Shown: positions 38,022-52,848 of the stretch, piece after piece
Layout: every line of letters begins with the position of its first letter
How positions within the stretch are numbered: position 1 is the first letter of the stretch
Assembly: GCA_902787555.1 (NCBI GenBank)
Contig: CADAGO010000009.1
Span: 1 to 64,000 of the forward strand
DNA: 64,000 nt
Reading direction: 5' to 3'
DNA from: an uncultured Bacteroidales bacterium
GTDB taxonomy: Bacteria; Bacteroidota; Bacteroidia; Bacteroidales; Bacteroidaceae
The notes under the pieces: model-generated
Database searches by the model: none
Seen by the model: the letters and a program-made list of their open reading frames with translations, nothing else
What the model was told of the DNA's origin: nothing
Position numbers and translations under genes: made by a program

Positions 38022-39137
38022 ATGATCAAACGAAACGTTTTACTCAATCCAGGTCCTGCTACCACAACAGACACGGTGAAGATGGCGCAAGTAGTACCAG
38101 ATATTTGTCCTCGTGAGAAAGAGTTTGCAGGACTGATGAAAGGCCTGCGTGCCGACTTACTGAAAGTGGTACATGCTCCTGCAGACCAATACACATCTGT
38201 ACTCTTCTGTGGGTCGGGTACAATCAATATTGATGTCTGCATCAATTCTCTCGTACCTGAAGGAAAGAAAATACTTGTAGTCAACAACGGAGCCTACAAC
38301 ACTCGTGCTGTTGAGGTATGTCAGATGTACCACATCCCACATATCGACCTCAAGTTCTCAGTTTATGAGCAACCTGACTTAGCACAGGTGGAGCAGACAC
38401 TGAGGGAGAACCCAGATGTTGCAGTAGTGTATTGCTGTCATCACGAGACGGGTACAGGCATCCTGAATCCTATTCGTGAGATAGGTGCTTTAGCTCACCA
38501 GCATGGAGCTATATTCGTCACAGATACAACTGCATCTTTGGGCATGATTCCTCTTGATGTCGTGAAAGATAATGTGGATTTCTGTATGGCTTCCGCTCAG
38601 AAGGGTTTGATGGCAATGTCTGGCTTGAGTTTTATCATAGGTAAGACGGATATCATCAAGGCAAGTAAGAACTATCCCACTCGCTCATACTACTGCAATC
38701 TCTATCTACAGTATGAGTACTTCGAAAAGACAGGCGAGATGCATTTCACACCTCCAGTGCAGACCATCTATGCCACGATTCAGGCATTAAAAGAGTACTT
38801 TGAAGAAGGGGAAGAAGCTAAGTTTGCACGCCACAGAGCTGTGTACGAAGCTATCCACGAAGGATTGGACAAACTGGGATTGGAAACGGCCATCGATCGT
38901 AATATCGAGTCAGGATTAGTGGTATCTGTAAAATACCCAGATAATCCAAACTGGAGTTTTGAAAAGGTACACGACTACTGCTACGAGCGAGGGTTCACGA
39001 TCTATCCGGGTAAGATAAGTACTACCAATACCTTCCGACTCTGTGCCTTAGGAAAGATTTACCCACAAGACATCGAGGACTTCTTTGTAGTATTCAAAGA
39101 GGCCCTTGAGAAATACGGAATCCCAGTACGGCAGTAA
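38022..39137 (+). CDS. phnW: 2-Aminoethylphosphonate transaminase (PhnW/AepZ-like)
   Basis: This 371-residue PLP enzyme of the class V aminotransferase fold opens with LLNPGPATTT, the signature of this subfamily. Asp168 (VTDTTAS) and Lys194 (SAQKGLMAMSG) are the PLP partners. It interconverts phosphonoacetaldehyde and AEP with alanine/pyruvate. Because PEP mutase and phosphonopyruvate decarboxylase genes are 10-13 kb away and no phosphonatase is visible, it probably works in the biosynthetic direction here. A related alanine:glyoxylate transaminase cannot be excluded from sequence alone. Confidence 0.82.
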   Translation: MIKRNVLLNPGPATTTDTVKMAQVVPDICPREKEFAGLMKGLRADLLKVVHAPADQYTSVLFCGSGTINIDVCINSLVPEGKKILVVNNGAYNTRAVEVCQMYHIPHIDLKFSVYEQPDLAQVEQTLRENPDVAVVYCCHHETGTGILNPIREIGALAHQHGAIFVTDTTASLGMIPLDVVKDNVDFCMASAQKGLMAMSGLSFIIGKTDIIKASKNYPTRSYYCNLYLQYEYFEKTGEMHFTPPVQTIYATIQALKEYFEEGEEAKFARHRAVYEAIHEGLDKLGLETAIDRNIESGLVVSVKYPDNPNWSFEKVHDYCYERGFTIYPGKISTTNTFRLCALGKIYPQDIEDFFVVFKEALEKYGIPVRQ

Positions 39138-39170
39138 GGCAATTAGAGCGAGTGCCAATATGGGATTCCG
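39116..39170. other. Inverted repeat over the end of phnW
   Basis: CGGAATCCCA (39116-39125) and TGGGATTCCG (39161-39170) are perfect arms around the stop codon, with a small nested GGCA/TGCC pair. No T run follows; it may still end transcription between the convergent phnW and ugd genes. Confidence 0.35.
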
Positions 39171-39185
39171 GTATAATGATAGGAG

Positions 39186-40445
39186 TTATAACATGTAACG
39201 ACAATCTACGACAGGCTTCTGAGTAATCTGTTTGATGTTCGAAAACTCAGGCCATGCAGTAGTGATGACCAACACATCTGCTTTACGAACTAAATCGTCA
39301 TAACTGTTGATATAGCTAATCGCTAAGTTGGCATAATAACGCTCGAACTCAGCATTGGCCACAGGGTCATATCCGACGATGTTGGTATAGCCCAACAGTC
39401 GTAGTTGCTCAATGATTTTTGCTGATGGAGTATCACGTACGTCATCGCTTCCTGGTTTAAATGACAGACCCAAAATACCAATGTTTCGCTGTTTGTCCGT
39501 TCCAACGATACGTGCTATTTTCTTAGCAATCTGAGCCGGCATCTGGTTGTTAATGCTTATGACATTCTTCAGTATCTGAGCATCAAACCCTGCTGTATTT
39601 GCTACAGCATACAAAGCATTGGTGTCTTTTGGCAGACAGTAGCCACCATATCCACAACCAGGATAAACATAGCTTGCCATCGTGGCACCACCCCACCTTT
39701 TATCCTCATGAAGGATACGGAAAGCTGCAGCAACATCGATACCTCCAATAGTATCGGCTACAAGGCTCATCTCGTTGCTGTAGCTGATCAGTGTGGCAAG
39801 AAGTGTATTCGACAGGTACTTGATAAACTCACCTGTATTCAATGATACACAATGAATAGGTTCTTTGATGGTGGAATAGACCTTACGAAGCACCTCTGCA
39901 GAGCGTTCGTCGCTAACACCAAGGACGATACGATCTGCTTTGATGAAGTCATCCCAACAATGTCCTTCACGCAGGAACTCAGGGTTGTTTGCAACACCTA
40001 AGTCTTGTCCTACGTTGAGGCTCTTCGCTTCCAAATAGGGAATGACCTTTTGCGAAGTAGTTGATGGGGGAATGGTAGACTTGACAACCAGGACTTGATA
40101 TTTATTCTCAGGTCGCACACTCAGTGTCTGGTCAAGGGCGCTGAAGAGATAGGTAAGGTCAGCTTGTCCATCCTTGCCGTAAGGCGTTCCAACGCAGTAA
40201 TAGATACAGTCACTCTGCTTGACTGCCTCTTCTAGCCTATTGATACCAATGGGATGGAACCGTTTACCCAGATGACGTACTAATGCCTCGTCAAGACCTG
40301 GCTCCAGAAAAGGCAATTTTCCACCTTTAATGGTGTCCAACCGTTCGCCATTTATTTCTACGCCATAGACGGTATGTCCGTATTCTGCGAAGCCCAACGA
40401 TGTGGTCAGACCTACAAAACCCAATCCAAATACAGTGATTGTCAT
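39186..40445 (-). CDS. ugd: UDP-glucose 6-dehydrogenase family protein
   Basis: The 419-residue NAD-dependent enzyme opens with TVFGLGFVGLTTSLGFAEYG (nucleotide binding). VVKSTIPPSTT and NNPEFLREGHCWDDF follow, and the catalytic Cys270 is in GYGGYCLPKD. The family oxidises UDP-glucose to UDP-glucuronate, or related sugars such as GDP-mannose and UDP-ManNAc. A UXS-like epimerase gene directly upstream in the same operon supports UDP-glucuronate as product. It is the last gene of the operon degT-rfbF-epimerase-ugd. Confidence 0.88.
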   Translation of the reverse strand: MTITVFGLGFVGLTTSLGFAEYGHTVYGVEINGERLDTIKGGKLPFLEPGLDEALVRHLGKRFHPIGINRLEEAVKQSDCIYYCVGTPYGKDGQADLTYLFSALDQTLSVRPENKYQVLVVKSTIPPSTTSQKVIPYLEAKSLNVGQDLGVANNPEFLREGHCWDDFIKADRIVLGVSDERSAEVLRKVYSTIKEPIHCVSLNTGEFIKYLSNTLLATLISYSNEMSLVADTIGGIDVAAAFRILHEDKRWGGATMASYVYPGCGYGGYCLPKDTNALYAVANTAGFDAQILKNVISINNQMPAQIAKKIARIVGTDKQRNIGILGLSFKPGSDDVRDTPSAKIIEQLRLLGYTNIVGYDPVANAEFERYYANLAISYINSYDDLVRKADVLVITTAWPEFSNIKQITQKPVVDCRYML

Positions 40446-40474
40446 ATTGCTGATGATTTGTTTTTCCTATTTCT

Positions 40475-41563
40475 CTACCATTTATATTCTTCCTCATTAC
40501 TCTCCTTGAGGTATTTCAGGAAACGTGAAACACCCTCTTCGACTGAGATGGTGGGATTATAGCCCAACAGCTTGCGAGCCTTGTCAATACAAGGACATCT
40601 ACGCTGTGGATTATTCGTGAGATACTCCTTGTCTTCTGACACAGCATAACGTACCTCTCCTTTGTATCCGAATAATTCACGTCCTGCTTCAACATATATC
40701 TGAGCCAATTGTGCGATAGTAATCTCTGGCTTTTCGATACCAATATTAAAGAAGTCATATTGCCCATGCAGCAGAATCTTGAAATATCCACAAACACTAT
40801 CTGCGATGTAACAGAATGTACGTGTTGGTGTTCCGTTGCTCAGAATCTCGATGTCTCTGTTCTCCATGATTGCCAAAGCAAAATCTGCAGGCACTCGTTT
40901 GTCGCCGATACGCATACCAGGACCATAGTTGTTGAAAGGACGTGCTACACCAATGGGCATATTGTATTTTTGTGCGAAGAGCATGCACATCGTCTCCCCA
41001 AAGCGTTTAGACTCGTCATAGCAAGCTCGAGGACCTGTTGCACAAACATTTCCATGATAGTCTTCAGATGTTGGTACGTGTGCTGGGTCAGGGTCTCCAT
41101 ACAATTCGCTGGAAGAGAAAAACAAGAACCCTTTGACGTTTCGTGTGGAGTAGTAGTCGAGCAGTGAGCGCAGTCCCCAGATGTTAGCATCTAAGGTTTC
41201 GATAGGATATTTACGGTAAAACATTGGTGAAGCAATGGAGGCCATATGGATGATGAAGTCTGCCTCTGATGCTCCTTCTATATCTGCAATGTTGTCCTTG
41301 ATAATGTCGAACTTACGAAGGGCAACTTTAGGATTCTGCTCCAACTCCTTAATCCAACCAGGTTGACCTAACATAAAGTTATCAAGGCCGATTATCTTCT
41401 TGATACCCAATTCTTCGCTTTCTGCAGCAAAGAACTGCATCATATAACAACCTAAAAAGCCGGCACATCCAGTGATAAGTACAGTAGAGCCGTTGAATTT
41501 AGCACGCTCTGCAGCTGTGAGACCATTGAGCGTGTGTTTGATGTCATTTTGTAAGATATTCAT
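40475..41563 (-). CDS. NAD-dependent epimerase/dehydratase, UDP-glucuronate decarboxylase-like
   Basis: The 362-residue SDR enzyme has the NAD motif TGCAGFLG (31-38) and the active pair Tyr182-x3-Lys186 in GPRACYDESKRFGET. The phrase around it and FSSSELYGDP are close to UDP-xylose synthase (UXS), which converts UDP-glucuronate to UDP-xylose. A longer N-terminus (about 25 residues) precedes the fold. With ugd behind it, a UDP-GlcA to UDP-Xyl route is possible, but the neighbouring rfbF and DegT genes would equally allow a role on a CDP-sugar. Confidence 0.8.
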   Translation of the reverse strand: MNILQNDIKHTLNGLTAAERAKFNGSTVLITGCAGFLGCYMMQFFAAESEELGIKKIIGLDNFMLGQPGWIKELEQNPKVALRKFDIIKDNIADIEGASEADFIIHMASIASPMFYRKYPIETLDANIWGLRSLLDYYSTRNVKGFLFFSSSELYGDPDPAHVPTSEDYHGNVCATGPRACYDESKRFGETMCMLFAQKYNMPIGVARPFNNYGPGMRIGDKRVPADFALAIMENRDIEILSNGTPTRTFCYIADSVCGYFKILLHGQYDFFNIGIEKPEITIAQLAQIYVEAGRELFGYKGEVRYAVSEDKEYLTNNPQRRCPCIDKARKLLGYNPTISVEEGVSRFLKYLKESNEEEYKW

Positions 41564-41595
41564 TTCTTTAATTTATTGTATATTCAATTGAAGTC

Positions 41596-42369
41596 TTATT
41601 CCGTGAGTCGCCAAGGAGCCCGATTCTCGTCCCATAGCTTATTCAATAGTTCGCGGTCACGAACTGTGTCCATGCACTGCCAGAAACCTTCATGACGGTA
41701 TGTTACCAGTTGTCCCTCAGCAGCTAAGCGTTCCAGGGGTTCTGCCTCGAACGTTGTCAGATCATTATCTATATAGTCAAACACTTTAGGACTAAGGACG
41801 AAGAACCCACCGTTAATCCATCCTTGATTGACCTGAGGTTTCTCCTTGAAGGAGCGGACATAGTCCTCTGAATCAATTTGTAGCTCGCCGAAACGTGCGG
41901 TAGGGTGTACAGCGGTCACCATGGCCAAACAGTTTGATTGGCGATAGCGACTGACTAACTCATCTATATTTACATCACTAACAGCATCACCATAGGTCAG
42001 CATGAAGTCCTCTTGACCAATGAAGTCTTTGAGCCTGAGCACGCGTCCACCAGTCATCGAAGCTGCGCCTGTATCAACAAGTGTCACTCGCCAGTCGCGA
42101 GCATGCTCATTAATATACTGAATAGAACCACTACTTAAGTCAATCGTAAAATCGTTGTTACGGGCATAATACTGGAGGAAATAGTCCTTAATAACCTCAC
42201 CCTTATAGCCTAATGCCACAATAAAATCCTTGTAGCCATAATGGGCGTAGTGGTTCATGATATGCCATAAGATTGGCTTACCTCCAATCTCTACCATAGG
42301 CTTGGGAATCTGTTTTGTGTACTCGGATAGACGAGTGCCGAAGCCTCCTGCTAATATGATGGTTTTCAT
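41596..42369 (-). CDS. rfbF: Glucose-1-phosphate cytidylyltransferase
   Basis: The 257-residue nucleotidyltransferase has the signature GGFGTRLSEYTKQIPKPMVEIGGKP and the family's YGDAVSDVNIDELV and WINGGFFVLSPKVFDYI. It joins CTP and glucose-1-phosphate to CDP-glucose, the entry to CDP-3,6-dideoxyhexoses and related sugars. The usual next enzyme, CDP-glucose 4,6-dehydratase (RfbG), is not seen in the window. It overlaps the DegT gene by 4 bp. Confidence 0.92.
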   Translation of the reverse strand: MKTIILAGGFGTRLSEYTKQIPKPMVEIGGKPILWHIMNHYAHYGYKDFIVALGYKGEVIKDYFLQYYARNNDFTIDLSSGSIQYINEHARDWRVTLVDTGAASMTGGRVLRLKDFIGQEDFMLTYGDAVSDVNIDELVSRYRQSNCLAMVTAVHPTARFGELQIDSEDYVRSFKEKPQVNQGWINGGFFVLSPKVFDYIDNDLTTFEAEPLERLAAEGQLVTYRHEGFWQCMDTVRDRELLNKLWDENRAPWRLTE

Positions 42370-43475
42370 AGGCTGTTGATAAGTTTACAAATCAATTGAA
42401 TGTCGTCCTCGCTCAATTCGGGATGCATTGGTAATGAAATGATACGTGCATATACTTCGTCGGTAATAGGCAGTTCTACGTCCTCATGGAAGAGAGTGAG
42501 ATGGTGGTTTGGTGCATATTGAATTCCGTATTGGATGTCATGCTCCTTTAATTTCTGCTCTAATTGCGGACGCTTGCCTTCAAGTATTTGCAAGGCAAAG
42601 ATATGCGGCACAATATCATGCTCGTAATCCATTTGTGTCAACTTGACATAAGGAGTATCCTTTAGTAACTCACAGTAACGCTTCGCAATAGAACGGCGAC
42701 GTGGTGCAAATTCCTTTTCAAATCGAGAAAGCTGAACCTGACCGATAGCGGCAAAAATATTACTCATGTGATAACGGTAGCCTTGCTCTACCACATCGAA
42801 ATTCCAGCTACGCTTGCCGGCATACCGTTTCTCTGAATCTTTCTGCACACCTAACAAACGGGCATCACTGACCTTTTGGATGACCTCTTCGTCAGCCGTG
42901 AAAATAGCTCCTCCTTCACCAGTTGTAATATTCTTAATGCCATCGAATGAGAAGCATACGATGTCTCCCATAGAGCCGATTTTCTCTCCTTGACAAGTGC
43001 AACCAAAACTATGCGCAGCATCTTCTACTATACGCAGACCATGCTCAGCAGCAAAGGCTTGATAGTCTTTGGCCATACAACAATTACTGGCATAATAGAC
43101 TGGCATGATGGCTGTGGTACGAGGGGTGATACGGCGTTCTGCATCTTTTAAGTCGAGCGTCAAGGTATCAGGTCGTATGTCACAACTGACGGGTTTGCAT
43201 CCGGCTGCTCTAATCGCTTGGTATGTGGCAACGAAGGTGAACGATGGTACCAACACCTCATCACCAGGTTTGGTAACGGCTTGAATAGACAGATGCAATG
43301 CAGCAGTTCCGCTGTTGACGCAGATGGCTCGACGTCCTCCACCTATGTACTCTTCCAATTGGTGTTCAAACTCGCCTACGGTGGCTCCCATACCTAAATA
43401 ACCAATGTCTTCAATAACATGGGCTACAGCCTCTGATTCTGCCTTTCCAACTACCGATTTTGATAATCTAATCAT
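42366..43475 (-). CDS. DegT/DnrJ/EryC1/StrS sugar aminotransferase
   Basis: The 369-residue PLP enzyme has the family motifs CVNSGTAALHLSIQA, FVATYQAI, EDAAHSFG and the PLP lysine Lys181 in SFDGIKNITTGEGG. It would transfer an amino group from glutamate to a keto-sugar nucleotide. It is the first gene of the operon with rfbF, an epimerase and ugd. The exact sugar is unknown. Confidence 0.92.
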   Translation of the reverse strand: MIRLSKSVVGKAESEAVAHVIEDIGYLGMGATVGEFEHQLEEYIGGGRRAICVNSGTAALHLSIQAVTKPGDEVLVPSFTFVATYQAIRAAGCKPVSCDIRPDTLTLDLKDAERRITPRTTAIMPVYYASNCCMAKDYQAFAAEHGLRIVEDAAHSFGCTCQGEKIGSMGDIVCFSFDGIKNITTGEGGAIFTADEEVIQKVSDARLLGVQKDSEKRYAGKRSWNFDVVEQGYRYHMSNIFAAIGQVQLSRFEKEFAPRRRSIAKRYCELLKDTPYVKLTQMDYEHDIVPHIFALQILEGKRPQLEQKLKEHDIQYGIQYAPNHHLTLFHEDVELPITDEVYARIISLPMHPELSEDDIQLICKLINSL

Positions 43476-43495
43476 AGATGTGCGATTTAACGTTA

Positions 43496-43503
43496 CAAAG
43501 TTA
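43496..43503 (-). promoter_or_regulatory. -7 promoter box of the degT-rfbF operon
   Basis: TAACTTTG on the minus strand, 20 bp upstream of the ATG. A T-rich stretch precedes it. Confidence 0.5.
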
Positions 43504-43597
43504 CAAAAAAAAAGTAAAAGGTAATAGTGAAAAGTGAAAAAATGAAGAAAATAGGTAAAATAGTAAATAGTAAATGAATAATTGGCAATTTATTTTG

Positions 43598-43605
43598 TAT
43601 CTTTG
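43598..43605 (+). promoter_or_regulatory. -7 promoter box of the licD gene
   Basis: TATCTTTG ending 21 bp before the ATG at 43627. It rules out the longer reading from 43582. Confidence 0.5.
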
Positions 43606-43626
43606 CACTCAAAATATCATAGAACA

Positions 43627-44454
43627 ATGGCTAATTATAAAATAGAAGATATACACCAGCGTATATTAAACATTTTGGTTGTAGTTGATAAGGTGTGCCG
43701 CGAACATGGCATACGCTATTGGCTTTCTGATGGCACAATGTTAGGCGCTGTGCGTCATGGGGGGTTCATCCCTTGGGATGATGATGCCGATATCGCCATG
43801 CCTCGCCCTGACTTTCAACGGTTCATTGAACATGGTTCGGAATGGTTGCCAAAGCCTTTTGAACTGCAGACATTTGAATTAGACGAAAACAGTAGCTGTG
43901 CACTTCTTAAGGTGATTGATGGTAGCACCACACTCATTGAGCGATGGTCACTCAATCAAATTGGTGGTGTATATATCGATGTATGTCCCATCGACGGCAT
44001 TCCTGCACAACGATGGCGTCGTAAACTTCGCATCGGACTGCTTCATATGGTGAAGACCTGGGTGTATCTGCGTAATCGAGACCCTTACAAACGTGGGCAT
44101 GGCTACACCTCATGGCTACCCAGACTATTGCAGGCCACCGTGAAGAATATTACTCTACAGCGGTTGCAGAAACGTATCCAGACAGCTTACGACTATGAAA
44201 CAGCACCACTGATTGCCGACTATGACAGCGGCGACCGCAGTACTATGCCACGTGAGGTGATGGGCACTCCTACTCCAATCATGTTCGAAGGCCACGAATT
44301 GTTGGGAGTAGAACATCCTGACACCTACCTTAAGTGTCTGTTTGGCGACTACATGAAGCTGCCACCCGAGAACCATCGTCGTATTCATGGATTCGACTAT
44401 GTAGATTTCGATCATTCGTATCATGACTATCATGATACTCGGGTTTTCAAATAG
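43627..44454 (+). CDS. LicD family phosphotransferase
   Basis: The 275-residue product has the LicD signature at 36-58 (GTMLGAVRHGG, then PWDDDADIAM), a nucleotidyltransferase-fold active site with the acidic DDD-D group. LicD proteins move phosphocholine from CDP-choline to surface sugars; relatives use other CDP-alcohols or phosphosugars. With a LicC/PntC-like cytidylyltransferase and AEP synthesis genes nearby and no choline uptake or kinase genes in the window, AEP is an attractive donor head group. That is inference. A glycosyltransferase gene follows after 12 bp. Confidence 0.88.
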   Translation: MANYKIEDIHQRILNILVVVDKVCREHGIRYWLSDGTMLGAVRHGGFIPWDDDADIAMPRPDFQRFIEHGSEWLPKPFELQTFELDENSSCALLKVIDGSTTLIERWSLNQIGGVYIDVCPIDGIPAQRWRRKLRIGLLHMVKTWVYLRNRDPYKRGHGYTSWLPRLLQATVKNITLQRLQKRIQTAYDYETAPLIADYDSGDRSTMPREVMGTPTPIMFEGHELLGVEHPDTYLKCLFGDYMKLPPENHRRIHGFDYVDFDHSYHDYHDTRVFK

Positions 44455-44466
44455 TTAGCGCATTTC

Positions 44467-45171
44467 ATGCTCATATCTGTCATCACAGTTACATATAATG
44501 CCCTGCCTGCCCTCAAGCAGACGCTGCAAAGCGTTTGGGCACAGACGTACCCTGAGGTGGAGTGTATCGTAGTGGATGGAGCATCCACAGATGGAACACC
44601 TCAATATCTGGCAGGCCTCAAGCCAACAATTCCGTTGATATATACATCTGCTCCTGATCATGGCATTTACGATGCTATGAACAAAGGGATTGCAATGGCT
44701 CATGGAGAGTATTGCATCTTTATGAATGCTGCTGATACCTTCGTTGGACCTCAAGCACTAGAAGAGGTCGTTGCTCAAGGAATGGCGGATGATGTTGTAT
44801 ATGGCGACATTCTCAAAGAGGGTAACATCAAACATGCAGCCAACCCCCGAAATAGCCACAAGATGTATTATTGTCATCAGGCGGTCTTCACTCGCACACA
44901 ATGTCTGCGCGATTACCCCTTCGACATCAGCCATACGATGTCGGCCGATTTCAAGCAAGCAAAACAACTGTTTTTGGCTGGTAAATCATTTAAACATATC
45001 CCCGTCGTAATCACAGCTTACGACACTACAGGAATCTCAAACACACGACGCTCCAAGGGACTGCTGGATAATATTAAAGTGATTCACGAGACAGACTCTT
45101 GGAAGGATCAGTTGAGATTTCTTCCACGATTGCTGTTTACCTATATCAGTTGCAAACTACGTGGACGTTAA
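44467..45171 (+). CDS. Glycosyltransferase family 2
   Basis: The 234-residue GT-A enzyme starts with ISVITVTYNALPALKQTLQSV. VDGASTDGT and YDAMNKGIAMAHGEYCIFMNAAD follow, the last being the metal-binding region, with AAD in place of the more usual AGD. It resembles the GT2 at 60631-61380. It is transcribed with the LicD gene and could build the acceptor sugar. The acceptor is unknown. Confidence 0.9.
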   Translation: MLISVITVTYNALPALKQTLQSVWAQTYPEVECIVVDGASTDGTPQYLAGLKPTIPLIYTSAPDHGIYDAMNKGIAMAHGEYCIFMNAADTFVGPQALEEVVAQGMADDVVYGDILKEGNIKHAANPRNSHKMYYCHQAVFTRTQCLRDYPFDISHTMSADFKQAKQLFLAGKSFKHIPVVITAYDTTGISNTRRSKGLLDNIKVIHETDSWKDQLRFLPRLLFTYISCKLRGR

Positions 45172-45185
45172 GTTAAGGCGTGTTT

Positions 45186-47396
45186 TTATAGTTTCCATTT
45201 CAGCTGCAACTGCAGATCTTCCTTGTGTGAGGCATTTATCATCTCCAATCCTGTACCTATCGTATTCCGATTGAAGTACTTTGTCGTCGTGAACTTACAA
45301 GTGAAAGACAAGCGACTGCTGATGTTTGTGGAATATAATGCTATCACTTTTATGCCCTGATAGAATAAAGAGGTCATACCTAACGTGTACAAAAGAGATG
45401 GTTCGTTGGTGTAAACCCGAGAGGCATAAGACTCTGTATTGAAGTATGTCAAAGAGAGATCCGCACGCTGTTTGCCTCGGAAAGCCTTTATCTGACGTTC
45501 CCATCGTAAATGTTGTGTCCATAAATAGCCTATTTCATTTGATGAAGAGGGGGTGATATAATAGACGCCTGTTGCTGTTGTCTTCAACATAAACTGTTCA
45601 TTGAGCCTGTAATTCCATTGAATTCTTAGGTTATGCCGAGTTGCATCATACAATTGTGTTTCGTTATTTCCAATTTTCACATCCTGCTGCTTGGATTTTA
45701 ATCGATAACGTATCTGCCATGTAGAACGTTCTGACGGGTTATACGTCATCTTGAGTTGACTCTCAATCCCTTTCGCTCCTGCTGCAGCACGATAACTTAG
45801 CTCAGGTAATTGAAAGCAGTCAATGTAAGCTTCCAGTTGAACCTTTGTCCAGGGTTCTGCAGTGATACCCACAAAGGCTCCTAGTTCATTTTGAGGACGT
45901 GAGTTCTCACCAAATGCTTTGCTGTAAATTGTGGCATAGCGTGCATCATAGTATCTCAGCAAAGCAGACAAATAGGTATAGCTATTGATGCTGTATCGCA
46001 TACTATTGACTGCGGCAATACCTGTATTGGGGTTGGAATGATTTGCTTGTGTAGGTGTGACACTATTATCATCCACTCCGTTGGAGGTACTGATGGCATA
46101 TTCTCCCTGTATGACCCATTTATTGCGTCTGTAACTATAAGAGGCTCCAACGGCTGAGAACAAGGTTCCTTGTGGATAAAACTGACGATATAAAGAGGAT
46201 GGTGTGTTAAACTTTGGAGCAAGTGGCTTAGAAAAATGGGTGACGATGCCTGTTAGCCCCAATAACCAACCTTTATGGAAATAACTGAAGTGGCCTCCGG
46301 CTGATAATTCATGAATAATTCCCTTCTTGCTTCGTTCTAATAATGTACGATGTAAGCCATCTGTTTTCAACGATGAAATAGCATTCTTATTGTCGCTCCT
46401 TAGTGTTCCGTCTACATTCTGATATGACAGAAAAGCGGTTAAATGGGTGTTTTCGCCTATCGTATAATCAATAGCAGCTCCTCGAAAGTGGTTTGCTTCT
46501 GACATGGATGAGTGTTTGCGGATTCCATGCGTGACGGAAGTATTAGAGAACAGCCCCCATCCTACTGATTTGCCAAAACTCATACAATTATTAATGACTA
46601 ACCCTTGTCCAAAACTCAACTTGTAATCTCCCACAAGCAGGGTGCGGATATTTCCTATATGGTTCAACATGGCATAACCAGAGAAATAATCGAAATAATC
46701 CTCGCCTGCGTCTTTCTCAATTTGGAAGCCTGCTGTGACACGATGCATCGACTTCAACTGATAACGGATAGAATGATAATTGCTATTGCCTCTGTAGATT
46801 TTATTAGGTGACTTTTCAATGACACTTTGGGGTTTATCTTGATACCCTTCTTTCGTATATAAAGGGATATCAGTTCGCATCGTCAACTCATGCTGGGCAA
46901 AATGCCATAAGCGACGTAGTGTGTAGTTACCTTCTGTAGATGGCTCGCCCGCATAGCAAAAAAGCATCAGTCGAAAACGTGTCAAATAGTCAAGTTCGCG
47001 TATCATCATTAGTTCGCCCAACGTGCGAACAGGATAGTTGACGTTAACATAATAGACAATAGCTTCTATTTGCTGTCGAGTAAGAAAAGGTAGTTTGGCC
47101 AATTGGTCTGTAGTTTCCGTCAGTAGTTTGTTAGCACCTTCTTTTGATTTTAAGTCATTCAGATTGATGGGTGAAAGATGTATCTCGTAGAGTTCGTCGA
47201 GCAGGGCATCCAGGCTGCCGTCAGTCCATTCCTGTTGTTCGTCGTCGAGGTCCTGATAGGTGTATTGTTCGTACATGTCTTGTACGAAATCATCCCATTC
47301 CATCGTGGATTGCGCATTCAGCAGGCTTGTTTTACAGGTGATAAGGAGCAATAGGAGAAGGTGGTGAACGAAACGTGGTTTCATGTGATGGCACAT
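45186..47396 (-). CDS. Outer-membrane beta-barrel protein with helix-hairpin-helix domain
   Basis: The 736-residue exported product has a signal peptide ending in LNAQ. An N-terminal region with ComEA-like helix-hairpin-helix features (SPINLNDLKS, LPFLTRQQIEAIVYYV, VRTLGELMMIREL) precedes about 550 residues of alternating beta strands like a porin or TonB-independent barrel. This arrangement is a conserved Bacteroidetes family of unknown function. The ATG at 47396 overlaps the stop of the prenyl synthase gene by one base (TAATG); a second ATG at 47384 is also a possible start. It is last in the minus-strand operon with the AEP genes. Confidence 0.75.
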   Translation of the reverse strand: MCHHMKPRFVHHLLLLLLITCKTSLLNAQSTMEWDDFVQDMYEQYTYQDLDDEQQEWTDGSLDALLDELYEIHLSPINLNDLKSKEGANKLLTETTDQLAKLPFLTRQQIEAIVYYVNVNYPVRTLGELMMIRELDYLTRFRLMLFCYAGEPSTEGNYTLRRLWHFAQHELTMRTDIPLYTKEGYQDKPQSVIEKSPNKIYRGNSNYHSIRYQLKSMHRVTAGFQIEKDAGEDYFDYFSGYAMLNHIGNIRTLLVGDYKLSFGQGLVINNCMSFGKSVGWGLFSNTSVTHGIRKHSSMSEANHFRGAAIDYTIGENTHLTAFLSYQNVDGTLRSDNKNAISSLKTDGLHRTLLERSKKGIIHELSAGGHFSYFHKGWLLGLTGIVTHFSKPLAPKFNTPSSLYRQFYPQGTLFSAVGASYSYRRNKWVIQGEYAISTSNGVDDNSVTPTQANHSNPNTGIAAVNSMRYSINSYTYLSALLRYYDARYATIYSKAFGENSRPQNELGAFVGITAEPWTKVQLEAYIDCFQLPELSYRAAAGAKGIESQLKMTYNPSERSTWQIRYRLKSKQQDVKIGNNETQLYDATRHNLRIQWNYRLNEQFMLKTTATGVYYITPSSSNEIGYLWTQHLRWERQIKAFRGKQRADLSLTYFNTESYASRVYTNEPSLLYTLGMTSLFYQGIKVIALYSTNISSRLSFTCKFTTTKYFNRNTIGTGLEMINASHKEDLQLQLKWKL

Positions 47397-48349
47397 TAGT
47401 AGTTGCGCTGTATCGCATAGTTGACATAGTCCGTCAGGGCTGCCTTGACAGGACTATCCTCATAACGTTCTAAGAGTTGGCGTGCCTGTGCTGCAATCTG
47501 CTCCATCTTTGATGTTGCATATTCAATGCCGCCATATTGTTTAGTTAACACGATCAACTGATGGATTTCTTCTGTTGTGACTTGCCCTAGCTTGGTTTTC
47601 TGAATTAAGGGCAACAATTCCTGTTTATGACCTTGTAGGGTATATAGTAGTGGCAGGGTTATTTTACCTTCTTTGAGGTCATTCCCTTTGGGTTTGCCTA
47701 TATTACATCCTTCATAGTCGAGGATGTCGTCCTTGATCTGGAAACACTGACCTACGAGCAAGGCAAACTGATAGAGTGTGTCGATGTCGTCCTGACAGGC
47801 ACCTGCAAGGGTGGCTCCAGAAGCTGCGCATGCTGCAAAGAGTGCTGCAGTCTTGCCGGTAATGATGCGCAAGTAGGTTGATTCAGAGAAGTCTGACGAC
47901 TGAATGGTGTGTAGTTGCAGAAGCTCTCCTTCAGCCAATGCTTTTGATGCTTTCGATATCAGCAGCACGATTTGCGGATTATTGATGGAGGCAATCAGGT
48001 GGAGCGCCTCGCCTAAGATGTAGTCGCCACAGAGAATAGCCACACGATTGGTTTGGGCATGATTGATGGACTCATGGCCTCTGCGTTCATCACTCTCGTC
48101 CACTACATCGTCGTGAATCAGGCTGGCTGTATGGAGGGTTTCGAAAGCTGCTGCTACAGACAGGATGGCAGGAGTAACGGGGCCGAAAAGCTTTGCAGAC
48201 AGAAGTACCATCTGGGGACGCATCATTTTCCCTGTACGCATCTTCACGAGGTCGAGCACCTGGGCAAGGAGTGGGTTGCCTTCGTGGGTGAGCGACTGGA
48301 GCATGATTTCTTTACAAGCCGTGAGTTCTTTGTCGATGAGTGTGGTCAT
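47396..48349 (-). CDS. Polyprenyl diphosphate synthase
   Basis: The 317-residue all-helical enzyme has both aspartate-rich motifs, DDVVD (80-84) with following ERRG and DDILD (207-211), and GKTAALFAACAASGA between them. It extends allylic diphosphates with IPP, for the menaquinone side chain or another long isoprenoid; the chain length is not clear. It overlaps the upstream nucleotidyltransferase gene by 4 bp (ATGA), so the AEP-cluster genes and this one are likely co-translated. Confidence 0.9.
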   Translation of the reverse strand: MTTLIDKELTACKEIMLQSLTHEGNPLLAQVLDLVKMRTGKMMRPQMVLLSAKLFGPVTPAILSVAAAFETLHTASLIHDDVVDESDERRGHESINHAQTNRVAILCGDYILGEALHLIASINNPQIVLLISKASKALAEGELLQLHTIQSSDFSESTYLRIITGKTAALFAACAASGATLAGACQDDIDTLYQFALLVGQCFQIKDDILDYEGCNIGKPKGNDLKEGKITLPLLYTLQGHKQELLPLIQKTKLGQVTTEEIHQLIVLTKQYGGIEYATSKMEQIAAQARQLLERYEDSPVKAALTDYVNYAIQRNY

Positions 48350-49062
48350 AAGTCGATTCTGATGTTTTGCTCTGCATATCGCAGATCGTTGATGTCATCT
48401 ATCTCGTACCATTGCAGTTGGTCGAGTTTGAGTACGTGCATAGGTGTAATATGCTGGGAGACATGTAGTAATTGATATTCATAGCCTAACTTCGGCTTTT
48501 CGTCAACAATCTGTGCATAATCCTCGATACATGTGGTGTAGAAACGGTTGCTGAGTTTATGAATACCGACCAGTTCGCCTGAAGGGTGGATAGCCATCTT
48601 GTCGGTCGAGCAGTTGATGAGTTCGCACTTGTCGTTCATCTCGACATAATACTGGTCTTGAAACTTGGTGACAGGTGTGATAAGCATAGCCGAGGGGAAG
48701 GGGCAGTCTATCAGTTCGCGGATGGCACGCTGTTCAAATACCAAATCGGACTCCAGTAACAGGAAATCATCGTTGCCAATCGCTTCCCTGCAGTTGTAGA
48801 GGGTGTACATGCTGTTGGTTTCGGCATATTGGGGTGAATAGACACATGCTATCTGCGGAAACTGATTGCACAGGGATTCATAGGCTTCTCGTTTGTAGCC
48901 TGTACCGATGATGATGCGTTCGACACCACAGGCAATGAGTGTCTCAATGCTACGTACCACCATTGGTTTCCCCTTGAAAGGAATGAAACCCTTTGGAATG
49001 TTCTCGGTCATGTTACCAAAGCGGGTACCCATGCCTGCTGCCATGATGACTGCTGTCTTCAT
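48346..49062 (-). CDS. Nucleotidyltransferase, LicC/PntC-like (candidate CTP:AEP cytidylyltransferase)
   Basis: The 238-residue enzyme has the fold signature GMGTRFGNMTENIPK (10-24), then KPMVVRSIETLIACGVERI and LLLESDLVFE with the metal-binding Asp. The sequence is of the LicC type that makes CDP-choline; the same family includes PntC of Treponema, which makes CMP-AEP for surface glycans or lipids. The gene sits between phosphonopyruvate decarboxylase (17-bp gap) and prenyl synthase (4-bp overlap), a setting that favours AEP as substrate. The substrate is inference; the enzyme class is clear. Confidence 0.8.
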   Translation of the reverse strand: MKTAVIMAAGMGTRFGNMTENIPKGFIPFKGKPMVVRSIETLIACGVERIIIGTGYKREAYESLCNQFPQIACVYSPQYAETNSMYTLYNCREAIGNDDFLLLESDLVFEQRAIRELIDCPFPSAMLITPVTKFQDQYYVEMNDKCELINCSTDKMAIHPSGELVGIHKLSNRFYTTCIEDYAQIVDEKPKLGYEYQLLHVSQHITPMHVLKLDQLQWYEIDDINDLRYAEQNIRIDL

Positions 49063-49078
49063 CTGATTCTGCTTTGTT

Positions 49079-50218
49079 TTATTGATTTAGGAAATCCATC
49101 AATGCCTCTTTATTCTGTATGGGTGTAGTCGTAGGACGTCCCAGGTCTTTACGATTGCCTTTCTTCACTCTCACCTCAAGGAAGACGGGACCTTGGAGCA
49201 TGGAGCGCAAGTCATGAAAGGTGGAGAGTTGCTGTTGCAGCTCGCTTTTATCGTCAACGGAGTATATATGTTTGTATCCTACAGCCTTGGCAATTGCGGG
49301 CAAATCGATGGAAAGGCCTACGGTCGGCTGTCCGCCTACAGAGTCGTGAGCACCATTGTTGAATACTACATGAATATAGTTTTTGGGGGATTTACTGCCT
49401 ACAATCGCCATACTGCCCATATGCATGATGCTGGCTCCATCACCGTCGAAACACCATACAGCGCGGTCGGACTTCTCCAAAGCGATACCTAAGGCAATCT
49501 GTGAAGCATGACCCATTGAACCAACAGTGAGGAAATCACGCTCGTGTCCTTGGTTAATTGCCACACGATACTCGAACAGTTCGCGAGAAATCATTCCTGT
49601 CGTGGAAACGATGACGTCCTTGTCACCAAGTACAGCAGCTACGGTTTGGATGGCTTCCTCACGGCTCATGGTCAGGTCGTTATGCTCTATGTTCTGCAAT
49701 TTGTAGTCCTCGAACGTGTCCTTTTCGATTACTAAAGCATAGCACTCATTGGTTTGTAGCATGTATGCAATGGCTTTGTCAATCTGTGCCGCTGCCTTAT
49801 TTTCTTCTTTAGATAGTACAGTATAGTCAATCCCCATCACGTTGAGTAATCCTGTCGTCACCTTTCCTTGCTTCACATGTTGCGGTTCGTCGTGAACGCC
49901 TGGTTTACCTCGCCAGCCAATCACCAGCAGTACAGGGATATTATACACCTCTTTATCCGTAAGTGAGGCGAGCGGATTGATGATATTACCCTCACCGGAG
50001 TTTTGCATATAAACAACAGGTATCTTGCCTGTAGCCAAGTAATGCCCTGCAGCCAATCCCATTGCACCGCCTTCGTTGGCCGCAATGATGTTATGAGCAG
50101 CATCAGCATGGTCGGTGATATATGCACATAAGTTCTTCAACAGTGAATCAGGAACTCCTGCATAGAAATCGACACCCTTTGATGCCAGTGTGTCGTAGAA
50201 AAACTTTGGACTAATCAT
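49079..50218 (-). CDS. aepY: Phosphonopyruvate decarboxylase
   Basis: The 379-residue thiamine-diphosphate enzyme carries the activating Glu49 (AANEGGAMG), the TPP/Mg motif GDGASIMHMG starting at 259 and ending NN at 287-288, and HDSVGGQPT, typical of this family. It turns phosphonopyruvate into phosphonoacetaldehyde and so pulls the unfavourable PEP mutase reaction forward. It directly follows the PEP mutase gene. Confidence 0.93.
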   Translation of the reverse strand: MISPKFFYDTLASKGVDFYAGVPDSLLKNLCAYITDHADAAHNIIAANEGGAMGLAAGHYLATGKIPVVYMQNSGEGNIINPLASLTDKEVYNIPVLLVIGWRGKPGVHDEPQHVKQGKVTTGLLNVMGIDYTVLSKEENKAAAQIDKAIAYMLQTNECYALVIEKDTFEDYKLQNIEHNDLTMSREEAIQTVAAVLGDKDVIVSTTGMISRELFEYRVAINQGHERDFLTVGSMGHASQIALGIALEKSDRAVWCFDGDGASIMHMGSMAIVGSKSPKNYIHVVFNNGAHDSVGGQPTVGLSIDLPAIAKAVGYKHIYSVDDKSELQQQLSTFHDLRSMLQGPVFLEVRVKKGNRKDLGRPTTTPIQNKEALMDFLNQ

Positions 50219-50235
50219 CTTATTCTATTCAATTC

Positions 50236-50263
50236 AATAACCTTTAACCAATAACCATTAACC
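50236..50263. repeat. 7-bp tandem run (NNTAACC) between pepM and aepY
   Basis: AATAACC, TTTAACC, AATAACC and ATTAACC are adjacent 7-bp units, of the same type as at 18190-18225. Confidence 0.7.
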
Positions 50264-50271
50264 TTTATATA

Positions 50272-51582
50272 TCATTTCTTCTTCGTGCCTGGAATCAGGT
50301 TCAGAATCTGCTTAATAGGCATACAGTACTCTTCTGATGCTTCCATACTACGGCTATGCTGCAGGATGCTCTCTGCACACTTCACCATCGCAGGATAGGC
50401 TGCACGAAGCATGTGGTTAGCATAGATTACGATGTTGATGCCCCATGATGCAAGTTCTTCTTCTGTAAACTGGTTGTAGGTTGTAGGAACGGCTACAATC
50501 GGTGTGTTGGGGTCTTTCTCACGGAAACGCAGGCAAAACTCCTTGATATCTTCCCCGCTTTTATCCTTTGAGTGAATCATGATACCATCAGCACCTGCTG
50601 CTACGTAGGCGTGACAGCGCTCCAGCGCGTCTTCGACGGACTTGCCTGCTATGAGCGACTCACAACGTGAGATAATCATAAAATCGTTGGTAATCTGCGA
50701 TTCTTTCCCTGCTCGTATTTTGTGGCAGAAACCCTCTATCGTGTCCTGGGTCTGGACGGCATCTGTGCCAAAGAGCGAATTCTGTTTCAGTCCCACCTTG
50801 TCTTCAATAATTACAGCAGAGATGCCTAAACGCTCCAATGTGCGAACAGTGAAGCCGAAGTGTTCGACTTTTCCTCCTGTATCACCGTCGAAGATAAAGG
50901 GTTTGGTCGTGACTTCCAGTGTATCGTTCAAGTCGTGCAGACGGGTTGTCAGGTCTACCGCCTCGATATCGGGCTTGCCTTTCGAGGTGGAATCTGTAAG
51001 CGAAGAAGCCCACATACCATCAAACTCACGATGTTCTCCATTTACTTCCACGCTGGTATGCTCGGCAATCAAACCCGTCAGACCGTTATGCGACTCAAGA
51101 ATACGAACGATGGGCTTGGCAGAAATCAGTCTGCGGAGTGAGGACAGGCGTGCTTGCGGGGTGACGCCCAATGAATCGATCTCTTCTTTCAAACTGGAGT
51201 CTGAGATGCCTTTCGTATAAGGGATTTCGATGACTTGTCCGCCCAACTGTTTCATCACCTTGAACACCTCATCACGAATATACTTGTCGGGACCATAAAG
51301 CCAATCATCACCGTGAATGATATAGTCGGGTTTGTATTTCTTCAGATTCTCAATATAGCTCCACTCTTCCTGAGGCACTACTGAGGCAACACCCTTGATG
51401 TGCTCTATCACATTCTTGCGCTGCTCCCAAGTCAGGTATGGTAATCTGCGATGGTTGGCAATCGCTTTGTCAGTGAATAGCCCAATCATCACGTCGCCAT
51501 ACTTCGCTCCTTCATTGATGATGTTGATAAGTCCTGGGTGCATGATGTCGCCAATCATGCCCAAATAAACTTTTTTTGCCAT
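50272..51582 (-). CDS. pepM: Phosphoenolpyruvate mutase with N-terminal nucleotidyltransferase-like domain
   Basis: The product has 436 residues. Residues about 140-436 form the PEP mutase (isocitrate-lyase fold) with the signature EDKVGLKQNS (260-269), i.e. EDKx5NS, which distinguishes PEP mutases from other family members; FDGDTGGKVEHF and PTTYNQFTEEEL are also family features. It makes phosphonopyruvate, the first C-P bond step. The first 130 or so residues look like a cytidylyltransferase domain (GLFTDKAIANHRRLPYLTWEQRK), but the HxGH motif reads HPGL (His15 to Leu18), so this domain may be inactive. aepX is the name used in Bacteroides. Confidence 0.93.
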   Translation of the reverse strand: MAKKVYLGMIGDIMHPGLINIINEGAKYGDVMIGLFTDKAIANHRRLPYLTWEQRKNVIEHIKGVASVVPQEEWSYIENLKKYKPDYIIHGDDWLYGPDKYIRDEVFKVMKQLGGQVIEIPYTKGISDSSLKEEIDSLGVTPQARLSSLRRLISAKPIVRILESHNGLTGLIAEHTSVEVNGEHREFDGMWASSLTDSTSKGKPDIEAVDLTTRLHDLNDTLEVTTKPFIFDGDTGGKVEHFGFTVRTLERLGISAVIIEDKVGLKQNSLFGTDAVQTQDTIEGFCHKIRAGKESQITNDFMIISRCESLIAGKSVEDALERCHAYVAAGADGIMIHSKDKSGEDIKEFCLRFREKDPNTPIVAVPTTYNQFTEEELASWGINIVIYANHMLRAAYPAMVKCAESILQHSRSMEASEEYCMPIKQILNLIPGTKKK

Positions 51583-51642
51583 ATATTAATAAAAAACAAT
51601 CGGTGCCTATTCTCCTCTCAAAGGAGAGAAAGATGGGCTTTC

Positions 51643-52821
51643 CTATTTAACTTTGTTATATATTTCTTCCACTTTCCTTGCCAACGTTTCAGGATGGAAT
51701 GTTTTTATTGCGTACTGACGTCCTTTTTCGATCATCTGATTGCGCAAAGCGTCATTCGTCAAGATTGTGACAATTCCATCACGGATTTCCTCCACATTTT
51801 TAGGATCTACTTTCAGTGAACTGGGACCTCCGGCTTCTGGCAGGCTGCTCGTATTGCTGGTAAGCACAGGGCATCCGGAAAGTAATGCCTCCACTACAGG
51901 AAGTCCAAACCCTTCATAAAAAGAAGGATAGAGAAACAGCGTTGCATTGGCGTACAACCGTTTCAAACTGGTGCTGTCAATCGCTGTTGTCCACTGAAAC
52001 AGATGCTCCAAGTGGTGCTCAGCGATATATTGCTCTACCTCGTGTTTATACTCTTTTCCCTCACCGACGATGGTTAAGGGAATTTGCAAATCAGCAGGTA
52101 GCAATTCCATTGCTTTAACGATACCCATGAGGTTTTTCCGCGAATTAATAGAGCCGACATACAGCATATAAGGCTTACCGTCTGCTGGCTTTAACTCATT
52201 CGGACATCGCTCACCAACTCCCTTCATGCCTTGCTGACTTGTCATGAGTTTATCGAATTGGCTTAACTCCGCTTTCGACTCATAATAAGCTCTATTGACT
52301 GGCTGATACACCACACTTATTTTTTCTTCAGGAACTTTGTAGAATCTGAGGATATCCGCCTTGGTGCTCTCGCTGATAGCGATGATATGATTGGCATGCC
52401 GACAGGCATATTTCCATTTACGGTCATAAATCATTCTGTCGTGCCATCGATACATATCAGGAAAGGTATGAAATGCTACATCGTGTATCGTAACCACAGA
52501 AGGAATGTGTTGGCGTTCCAATCCTACTGGTATTTCGTTGCTCAATCCGTGGAAAAGGTCGACCTCATCGTGCGATAATGCGCTTGCCATCCCATAAGTG
52601 CGCCATAGACTTCCTCTCATCATTCCTGATGGGATGATGGTGCGGCAACTGGTATTCCCAAGATAAGGCATCGTCACATGGTTCTCAATGATTTTAGGAC
52701 TATATAACAGGTACTGATGCTCAGGGACATACGTTGTCAGTATGTCTATCATTGTTCGGCTATAATTCCCCAACCCTGTGAAGTTGTTGAACAGTCTTTT
52801 TGCATCAAATCCTATTTTCAT
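51643..52821 (-). CDS. Glycosyltransferase family 4
   Basis: The 392-residue GT-B enzyme opens with KIGFDAKRLFNNFTGLGNYSRTMI, and the C-domain has YVGSINSRKNLMGIVKAMELL and FYEGFGLPVVEALLSGCPVLTSNTSSLPEAGG. These are GT4 features. The start at 52821 is chosen since the reading to 52875 would begin upstream of the -7 box (52841-52848). PEP mutase follows after 60 bp on the same strand, so this may be the first gene of the phosphonate operon. Confidence 0.9.
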   Translation of the reverse strand: MKIGFDAKRLFNNFTGLGNYSRTMIDILTTYVPEHQYLLYSPKIIENHVTMPYLGNTSCRTIIPSGMMRGSLWRTYGMASALSHDEVDLFHGLSNEIPVGLERQHIPSVVTIHDVAFHTFPDMYRWHDRMIYDRKWKYACRHANHIIAISESTKADILRFYKVPEEKISVVYQPVNRAYYESKAELSQFDKLMTSQQGMKGVGERCPNELKPADGKPYMLYVGSINSRKNLMGIVKAMELLPADLQIPLTIVGEGKEYKHEVEQYIAEHHLEHLFQWTTAIDSTSLKRLYANATLFLYPSFYEGFGLPVVEALLSGCPVLTSNTSSLPEAGGPSSLKVDPKNVEEIRDGIVTILTNDALRNQMIEKGRQYAIKTFHPETLARKVEEIYNKVK

Positions 52822-52840
52822 GTTCCCCTCAATTAGGCTG

Positions 52841-52848
52841 CAAATATA
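52841..52848 (-). promoter_or_regulatory. -7 promoter box upstream of the GT4 gene
   Basis: TATATTTG on the minus strand, 19 bp before the ATG; the -33 element is weak. Confidence 0.45.

Follow-up and report, generated by a model that had tools for sequence, protein, structure and literature searches.

A Bacteroidales locus predicted to activate 2-aminoethylphosphonate through a separate PntC, with a probably inactive cytidylyltransferase domain fused to PepM and LicD as the likely transferase

How does a bacterium that makes 2-aminoethylphosphonate (AEP) activate it and bring it to a surface glycan? Cell surfaces are considered the main destination of bacterial phosphonate capacity. The steps after formation of the C-P bond have been called enigmatic, and the available portions of the paper that says so test no transferase (Rice et al. 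2019, PMC6697681). The question is raised by a locus at 38022-52875 of a 64,000-nucleotide stretch of DNA (the window; contig CADAGO010000009.1, assembly GCA_902787555.1) from an uncultured Bacteroidales bacterium. The closest relatives of this Bacteroidota genome are from ruminant guts. The locus combines AEP genes, a separate nucleotidyltransferase (PntC), a cytidylyltransferase domain fused to the phosphoenolpyruvate (PEP) mutase PepM, and a LicD-family gene. On balance it is probable that AEP is made here and activated with CTP by PntC, that the fused domain is inactive, and that LicD decorates a surface glycan. Enzyme families, residues and gene neighbourhoods give good support to AEP synthesis and its activation as CMP-AEP, the chemistry being that of published relatives. 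We infer the inactivity of the fused domain, the role of LicD as transferase, the nature of the sugar and the glycan as acceptor.

Making, activating and attaching AEP is already a published proposal, as far as the source was available (Rice et al. 2019, PMC6697681), and the locus represents one version of the Pnt pathway described there. What is new is a cytidylyltransferase domain that looks retired, the neighbourhood rule that goes with it, and the evidence on LicD from comparison with control loci, together with its rival. A literature search, judged from its listings, gave no recognised account of this locus type beyond Rice et al. 2019.

In the proposed pathway, PepM would convert PEP to phosphonopyruvate, the decarboxylase would convert this to phosphonoacetaldehyde, and the transaminase would yield AEP. 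PntC (48346-49062) would join AEP and CTP to CMP-AEP. The Fom1-like domain fused to PepM would no longer activate AEP, as the second histidine of its HxGH motif is lost. CMP-AEP would then serve LicD (43582-44454) as the donor of aminoethylphosphonate for a surface glycan, which the glycosyltransferases encoded nearby would build. The acceptor glycan would probably contain a 4-amino-4-deoxypentose from a cassette of four sugar genes (DegT, RfbF, SDR and UGD). The genes that carry this argument are:

38022-39137, plus strand: AEPT, 2-aminoethylphosphonate transaminase of the PhnW/AepZ type (TIGR03301, 472 bits, cut-off 360.8)
43582-44454, plus strand: LicD-family phosphotransferase, proposed AEP transferase (PF04991, 139.1 bits, cut-off 22.6)
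48346-49062, minus strand: PntC, predicted AEP cytidylyltransferase (PF12804, 57.1 bits, cut-off 27; PDB 6pd1, E 1.3e-39)
49079-50218, minus strand: phosphonopyruvate decarboxylase (TIGR03297, 516.3 bits, cut-off 312.5)
50272-51138, minus strand: PepM, PEP mutase domain (TIGR02320, 408.8 bits, cut-off 319.55, residues 149-433)
51163-51582, minus strand: PepM, N-terminal Fom1-like cytidylyltransferase domain with HPGL for HxGH (PF01467, 42.6 bits, cut-off 21; PDB 5x3d)

All genes named in a first-pass annotation of this DNA were recovered as open reading frames in the same places, with strong family matches. Its PEP mutase, phosphonopyruvate decarboxylase and PhnW-like transaminase each score above the NCBI equivalog cut-off, and the PEP mutase motif EDKx5NS that it reported is present as EDKVGLKQNS. 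The window thus holds the set that marks the Pnt AEP pathway (PepM with EDKxxxxxNS, decarboxylase and AEP transaminase). TIGR03301 spans PhnW and AepZ alike and cannot separate synthesis from breakdown. The transaminase gene is on the opposite strand from pntC, about 9 kb away, which would suit a catabolic enzyme placed beside the sugar cassette by chance. That explanation is very improbable. In two relatives of the genus (G014 and G015; L239, L240) a gene of the AEPT kind directly follows PntC and precedes LicD. Moreover, the assembly holds no phosphonatase above the cut-off (PhnX, TIGR01422, best 35.5 bits, cut-off 220; the search covered this route of AEP breakdown and no other), so the transaminase is unlikely to serve breakdown by the PhnX route.

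The nearest solved structure to the window nucleotidyltransferase is the two-domain PntC of Treponema denticola (Tde1415, 6pd1); pneumococcal LicC ranks behind it (E 1.2e-15). By pairwise alignment, R15, K25, E104 and E196 of the Treponema enzyme correspond to R14, K24, E104 and E195, so that this PF12804 protein carries all four residues. Together with D106, these are unchanged in all 60 rows of an alignment of 60 distinct PntC proteins, the window included. At the two AEP-contact positions of PntC the window has glutamates. LicC has aspartates at these two positions, and two PntC enzymes were shown to prefer AEP over phosphocholine, according to the parts available of Rice et al. 2019 (PMC6697681). 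Within a genus sample of 17 genomes, PntC of at least 77% identity occurs in all seven with PepM above the cut-off and in none of the other ten, whose best PntC matches reach at most 33% identity. The protein is a well supported PntC, a predicted AEP cytidylyltransferase on sequence grounds. Against this stands position 153, where the window has T in place of the lysine of the Treponema enzyme (T in 49 and V in 11 of the 60 rows); K155 is kept in just 38. The alanine mutant of K153 has less than 10% activity, in the parts of the source available (Rice et al. 2019, PMC6697681). Because the same authors call K153 only partially conserved, it was not treated as defining PntC.

The first-pass annotation named the PEP mutase correctly but lacked the domain fused to it. 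PepM residues 12-106 match PF01467 (CTP_transf_like), and the first approximately 135 residues form a Fom1-like domain (5x3d, the Fom1 domain, E 2.8e-44). Fom1 reads HPGH at the catalytic motif and the window reads HPGL. In TagD and CCT, activity falls sharply when the second HxGH histidine is lost. Its loss is the proposed reason why the fused domain would no longer make CMP-AEP. The motif was read at the aligned position in two overlapping sets. The family set comes from 399 genomes with 62 PepM places, 60 of which were used as loci (the other two are the window itself, G000, and G387, which was not fetched). The related set holds the best 80 of 146 confirmed relatives, chosen by similarity to the window PepM. 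Neighbouring PntC, transaminase, reductase and DUF6564 genes were called by similarity to one query each, and Pfam was run on selected proteins only (window genes and chosen locus proteins).

The 60 family PepM proteins carry HPGL (38), HSGH (17), HGGH (3), HTGH (1) or HFGH (1). All 80 related loci have L or Y at the last position (HPGL 75, HPGY 4, HHGY 1). The proteins with HSGH or HFGH, 18 in all, coincide with the 18 fusions that exceed 600 residues; these have a further N-terminal nucleotidyltransferase-like stretch, called by motif and with Pfam on one such protein (L369). Neighbours were compared in loci with full flanks (at least 2.5 kb upstream and 5 kb downstream; 51 of 60 family and 55 of 80 related loci). 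In the family set, every locus with a phosphonoacetaldehyde-reductase-like gene has HxGH (18 of 18) and none of the 30 HPGL loci has such a gene, whereas transaminase loci have HPGL in 23 of 23. Of the 30 HPGL loci, 28 contain a separate gene for PntC or DUF6564, compared with a separate PntC in 3 of 21 HxGH loci. The two family exceptions (L214, L215) have no decarboxylase beside PepM either. PntC or DUF6564 occurs in 53 of the 55 related loci, and the two exceptions (L059, L060) have a CDP-alcohol phosphotransferase instead.

These residues and neighbours suggest that the HPGL domain of the window is probably inactive, with PntC doing its task. The domain is nevertheless well conserved, with a mean pairwise identity of 79% in residues 1-135 (84% in the mutase domain), and H15, R55, D92, D93 and W94 are invariant in 27 rows. 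Such conservation indicates that it is kept for some purpose. It would also agree with a fused HPGL domain that is still an active cytidylyltransferase, PntC being a second enzyme of different specificity. This is unlikely, given the L or Y throughout the related set, the L in 38 of 60 family proteins, and the separate nucleotidyltransferase that is nearly always present. Evidence outside the family also weighs against a simple account. Seven further PepM genomes were found in a sample of 345 genomes of the phylum, with HxGH in five and the domain missing in two. Four of these loci were examined further. Three are HHGH loci with a transaminase, where the 8.5-9 kb fetched show neither PntC nor DUF6564; the fourth, with HPGH, has the reductase. 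The three HHGH loci speak against the simple rule that a transaminase means HPGL, and in some lineages the fused domain is probably still able to activate AEP. They fit with a fused domain that stays intact where PntC is absent. For a large branch of Bacteroidota (and Fibrobacter), we rate it as rather probable that the fused domain was silenced once PntC or DUF6564 took over and was kept for binding or scaffolding. The PepM structure model was poor (mean pLDDT 66) and was not used.

Two further sequences were noted while tracing this domain. When plasmids were searched with the fused domain, 33 records matched: one holds a PepM fusion, from Segatella copri, 30 carry an annotation as TagD or as an adenylyl/cytidylyltransferase family protein, and two are without gene annotation. 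The fusion (L369; strain DSM 18205, plasmid record NZ_CP085933.1) is a triple-fusion aepX with NSAH in place of HxGH, followed by a decarboxylase, a phosphonoacetaldehyde reductase and a gene of the CDP-glycerol glycerophosphotransferase family; it is likely a hydroxyethylphosphonate locus. In G013 a second PepM start with an HPGL domain (L315, G013:C22, 5148-6415) directly follows a LicD gene of another subclade and is ended by the contig edge. As the N-terminal domain alone is present, it was missed by the PEP mutase search.

The LicD-family gene of the first-pass annotation stood up to examination, with its PF04991 match and an FKRP-like fold. FKRP, a CDP-ribitol phosphotransferase, is the one PDB protein related to it in sequence at E 1 or below, and provides the only structure matches at E 0.001 or better for the LicD model (pLDDT 88.2). 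The 13 best fold matches are all FKRP, partial (TMq 0.37-0.47), and the entries matched include CMP and CDP-ribitol complexes. D66, D68 and D70 are among the invariant columns of alignment A2. The start codon is TTG as listed; a shorter ATG start is possible at residue 16.

The presence of LicD was ruled out as a marker of AEP: LicD is found in all 17 genomes of the genus (38 matches, part of which were fetched), PepM in seven.

The position and descent of LicD were more telling. Sixty PepM loci were set against 40 loci centred on a different surface-sugar gene, RfbF, in the same sample of genomes; the controls were hand-picked from 66 RfbF places, mostly for long contigs. Among loci with at least 7 kb on both sides (43 PepM, 34 control), LicD is no more than 10 kb away from PepM in 33 of 43, and it is present in 4 of 34 controls (Fisher p 1e-8, a guide only because related genomes are not independent). 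LicD on the same strand and at most 7 kb downstream is found in 25 of 43 versus 2 of 34. Without the flank rule the counts are 43 of 60 and 5 of 40. LicD follows the transaminase by no more than 62 bp in 10 of the 60 PepM loci (L201-L204, L208, L211, L234, L235, L239, L244). It is present in 21 of 23 full-flank transaminase loci of the family set and 18 of 32 of the related set. Of the seven genus genomes with PepM, six have LicD and PepM on one contig. In G013, the seventh, the PepM contig ends first, and the window-type LicD adjoins a transaminase and a sugar cassette on another contig.

In a LicD tree of 77 rows (score and length filters passed, near-duplicates left out), the window protein groups with those of G004, G012, G013, G016, G182, G187 and then G033, all PepM genomes. 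Across the 399 genomes, where the base rate of PepM is 60 of 399, all ten genomes with a LicD at least 55% identical to that of the window have PepM, compared with 21 of 70 with a more distant LicD and 29 of 319 among the rest. The ten represent four genera, five of them being from the genus of the window. The suggestion that LicD might never co-occur with pepM in relatives is contradicted by the neighbourhood counts, by the ten close pairs and by these ten genomes. From neighbourhood and descent, LicD is likely the AEP transferase, with CMP-AEP as donor.

Several observations weigh against that assignment. LicD far outnumbers PepM in the genus, 49 of the 70 genomes with a more distant LicD have no PepM, and the 55% line was set after the gap was seen (next match 53%), among relatives that are not independent. 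A further objection comes from the sugar cassette beside LicD, whose genes are:

39186-40445, minus strand: UGD, UDP-glucose/GDP-mannose dehydrogenase family (TIGR03026, 364.4 bits, cut-off 189.8)
40475-41563, minus strand: SDR, UXS-like NDP-glucuronate decarboxylase (top PDB match 2b69, UDP-glucuronate decarboxylase 1, E 6.8e-48)
41596-42369, minus strand: RfbF, glucose-1-phosphate cytidylyltransferase (TIGR02623, 370 bits, cut-off 300.25)
42366-43475, minus strand: DegT family, ArnB-like sugar aminotransferase (PF01041, 320.2 bits; PDB 8sng, E 3.7e-55)

The top PDB match of the DegT protein, 8sng, is a UDP-4-amino-4-deoxy-L-arabinose aminotransferase. By family and PDB matches the cassette holds the three activities of an NDP-4-amino-4-deoxypentose pathway (UGD, a UXS/ArnA-like decarboxylase and an ArnB-like aminotransferase), and from SDR, DegT and UGD we infer such a sugar as the predicted product. 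RfbF, in the same gene row, suggests CDP as its carrier. LicD might then serve this adjacent cassette, with AEP attached by another enzyme. RfbF would give CDP-glucose, UGD and the UXS-like enzyme a CDP-4-keto-pentose, and the ArnB-like enzyme would aminate it; LicD would move 4-amino-4-deoxypentose 1-phosphate from the CDP-sugar. LicD proteins transfer phosphate along with the group and use CDP conjugates, as stated in the part of the source available (PMC4873967).

A CDP-sugar donor for the window LicD is a live rival. Among the 61 RfbF places examined out of 66, window-kind RfbF (at least 444 bits; others at most 331 bits) is recognised 12 times, the window included, and LicD stands beside the cassette in all 12. 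In a 13th genome (G016), LicD and DegT are neighbours on one contig and RfbF is on a second. Six of the 13 cassette genomes have no PepM match (G019, G108, G148, G200, G226, G331). Four of the five control loci with LicD (L289, L291, L292, L296; not L279) hold this same cassette; of the five, four have full flanks, and three of those four are cassette loci. Cassettes g13 and g15 have a LicD gene placed between those for RfbF and SDR, and the window LicD is divergent from DegT, as in G187 (L291). The 15 kb of G049, where a more distant RfbF (270 bits) occurs with SDR and UGD, contain no LicD. As a whole, this rival is still judged fairly unlikely. In most of the six genomes without PepM, the LicD between RfbF and the SDR gene is of a different subclade, whereas window-type LicD occurs in PepM genomes only (10 of 10). 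Two LicD kinds thus share the cassette, one that goes with PepM and one that does not. G187 carries both kinds; beside the window cassette there is only the PepM-linked one. UGD and UXS enzymes normally use UDP-sugars, so that the CDP-sugar chain is itself hypothetical. A literature search on CDP-xylose, CDP-glucuronic acid and CDP-4-amino sugars gave no such route, judged by titles and the beginnings of abstracts.

AEP transfer by LicD thus keeps its place as the preferred reading. The first-pass proposal stands for AEP synthesis and CMP-AEP activation, and its LicD step is weakened by the LicD genomes and cassettes without PepM. In four genomes of the genus without PepM (G003, G005, G010, G011; L306, L307, L309, L310), a window-kind family 4 glycosyltransferase (GT4) lies next to or near a wider-clade LicD, which must use another donor there, since PepM is absent. 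G003, G005 and G011 have no PntC-like protein at E 1e-8. The same holds for G009, which has a wider-clade LicD with no window-kind GT4 nearby.

The remaining genes of the locus are:

44467-45171, plus strand: family 2 glycosyltransferase, GT2 (PF00535, 82.3 bits)
45186-47396, minus strand: 736-residue protein at the distal end of the pepM operon (Pfam gave nothing at E 0.001)
47396-48349, minus strand: polyprenyl diphosphate synthase (PF00348, 210.9 bits)
51643-52875, minus strand: GT4, first gene of the pepM operon (PF00534, 110.6 bits)

The last gene lies beyond 51582, where the first-pass annotation had ended the locus; a gene of the GT4 kind is upstream of PepM in many relatives. Two layout claims did not hold. 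The nucleotidyltransferase gene had been said to overlap the AEP operon, but pntC begins 16 bp past the decarboxylase gene; it is the pntC stop and the start of the polyprenyl synthase gene that overlap, by 4 bp. Three transcription units had been proposed, but the strand blocks are four: AEPT (plus); UGD, SDR, RfbF and DegT (minus); LicD and GT2 (plus); and GT4, PepM, decarboxylase, PntC, polyprenyl synthase and the 736-residue protein (minus). The promoter and terminator scan was close to shuffled sequence (34 versus 31.5; 9 versus 10.7). G004 has two polyprenyl synthases, 81% (pepM operon) and 46% (G004:C38:12134-13042) identical to that of the window; the pepM-operon copy may be an extra one for the lipid carrier of the glycan.

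The overlap of the polyprenyl synthase gene with pntC, and a group of relatives, bring in one more explanation, namely that AEP is made and activated here and ends on a lipid or another glycan, the adjacent LicD using another CDP donor such as CDP-choline. Seven related loci (L049, L059, L060, L062, L066, L068, L105) have an L059-like CDP-alcohol phosphotransferase (PF01066). The six with full flanks all have an AEP transaminase and an LPG-synthase-like membrane protein; one of them, L105, has LicD as well. These loci are a possible phosphonolipid pathway; L059 also has a PAP2 protein. For the window such an outcome is distinctly unlikely. None of its genes scanned around the AEP genes belongs to the CDP-alcohol phosphotransferase family, LicD and glycosyltransferases being there instead. 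No choline kinase is seen, as the first-pass annotation had noted; this is true of the assembly (82% complete; PF01633, 17.7 bits, cut-off 29), choline uptake genes not having been searched for.

In a second locus type (e.g., L119:12496-15820), the genes downstream of an HPGL PepM and its decarboxylase encode a metallophosphoesterase, an SDR, a DUF6564 protein and often LicD, and there is no AEP transaminase. The DUF6564-like gene is found in 20 of the 55 full-flank related loci (23 of 80 overall). Pfam, run for L119 and L199, assigns its product to PF20202 with a weak NTP_transf_3 match; DUF6564 may be a phosphonate nucleotidyltransferase that is still to be characterised.

Among the best 80 of 146 relatives, those with labels other than Bacteroidota have PEP mutases 82-90% identical to that of the window. 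Sixteen Fibrobacter loci, all from metagenome-assembled genomes (MAGs), have PepM 88-90% identical and form one supported group inside the Bacteroidota tree (L043-L122). Single MAGs are labelled Deltaproteobacteria (87%), Thermoguttaceae (86%) and Akkermansia (82%). This suggests that ruminant-gut bacteria of several phyla carry closely similar PEP mutases, and that PepM was transferred between phyla, although mis-binning may play a part. AEP has been reported in surface glycolipids of Fibrobacter succinogenes. Since similar PEP mutases span several phyla there, surface phosphonates may be common in ruminant guts.

The locus points to LicD as a testable transferase candidate and supplies a neighbourhood test with controls. 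It also allows a reading in which a single residue tells the active nucleotidyltransferase from the inactive one. If this reading is true, the residue state and the gene after the decarboxylase tell the product within the family (reductase and HxGH, hydroxyethylphosphonate; transaminase and HPGL, AEP), and published counts of PepM fusions overstate the active fused enzymes.

In the parts of Rice et al. 2019 (PMC6697681) available, nucleotidyltransferases are placed in about two-thirds of PepM clusters, and LicD-like phosphotransferases or glycosyltransferases are mentioned in such clusters. Like the window, the Pnt (phosphonyl tailoring) pathway described there unites PepM, decarboxylase, transaminase and PntC (PF12804) in a single locus, close to genes for LicD-like proteins or glycosyltransferases, and the three clusters of its Fig. 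3c have both a fused and a separate nucleotidyltransferase. PF01467 fusions are counted there as nucleotidyltransferase fusions, whereas the window domain lacks the second HxGH histidine; the term HXGH does not occur in the main text, as far as available. The T. denticola PntC is fused to a transaminase and that of the window stands alone. Fom1, of fosfomycin synthesis, likewise has a cytidylyltransferase domain at the N-terminus of a PEP mutase, but with HPGH, and acts on hydroxyethylphosphonate (PMC6697681, in the part available); the window pairs HPGL with a transaminase. The lic phosphocholine operon shares LicC-like and LicD-like enzymes with the window, which has AEP genes in place of a choline kinase above the cut-off, and E where LicC has D at the two substrate-contact positions (PMC6697681, in the part available). 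FKRP and FKTN share the LicD fold, by a partial match, and a CDP-linked donor, but are animal proteins with a ribitol phosphate donor. In capsular polysaccharide B of Bacteroides fragilis, AEP is carried on O-4 of a GlcN residue, according to the part of the source available (PMC12413058). The likeness is that of an AEP-decorated Bacteroidota capsule, while the sugar genes of the window point to other sugars.

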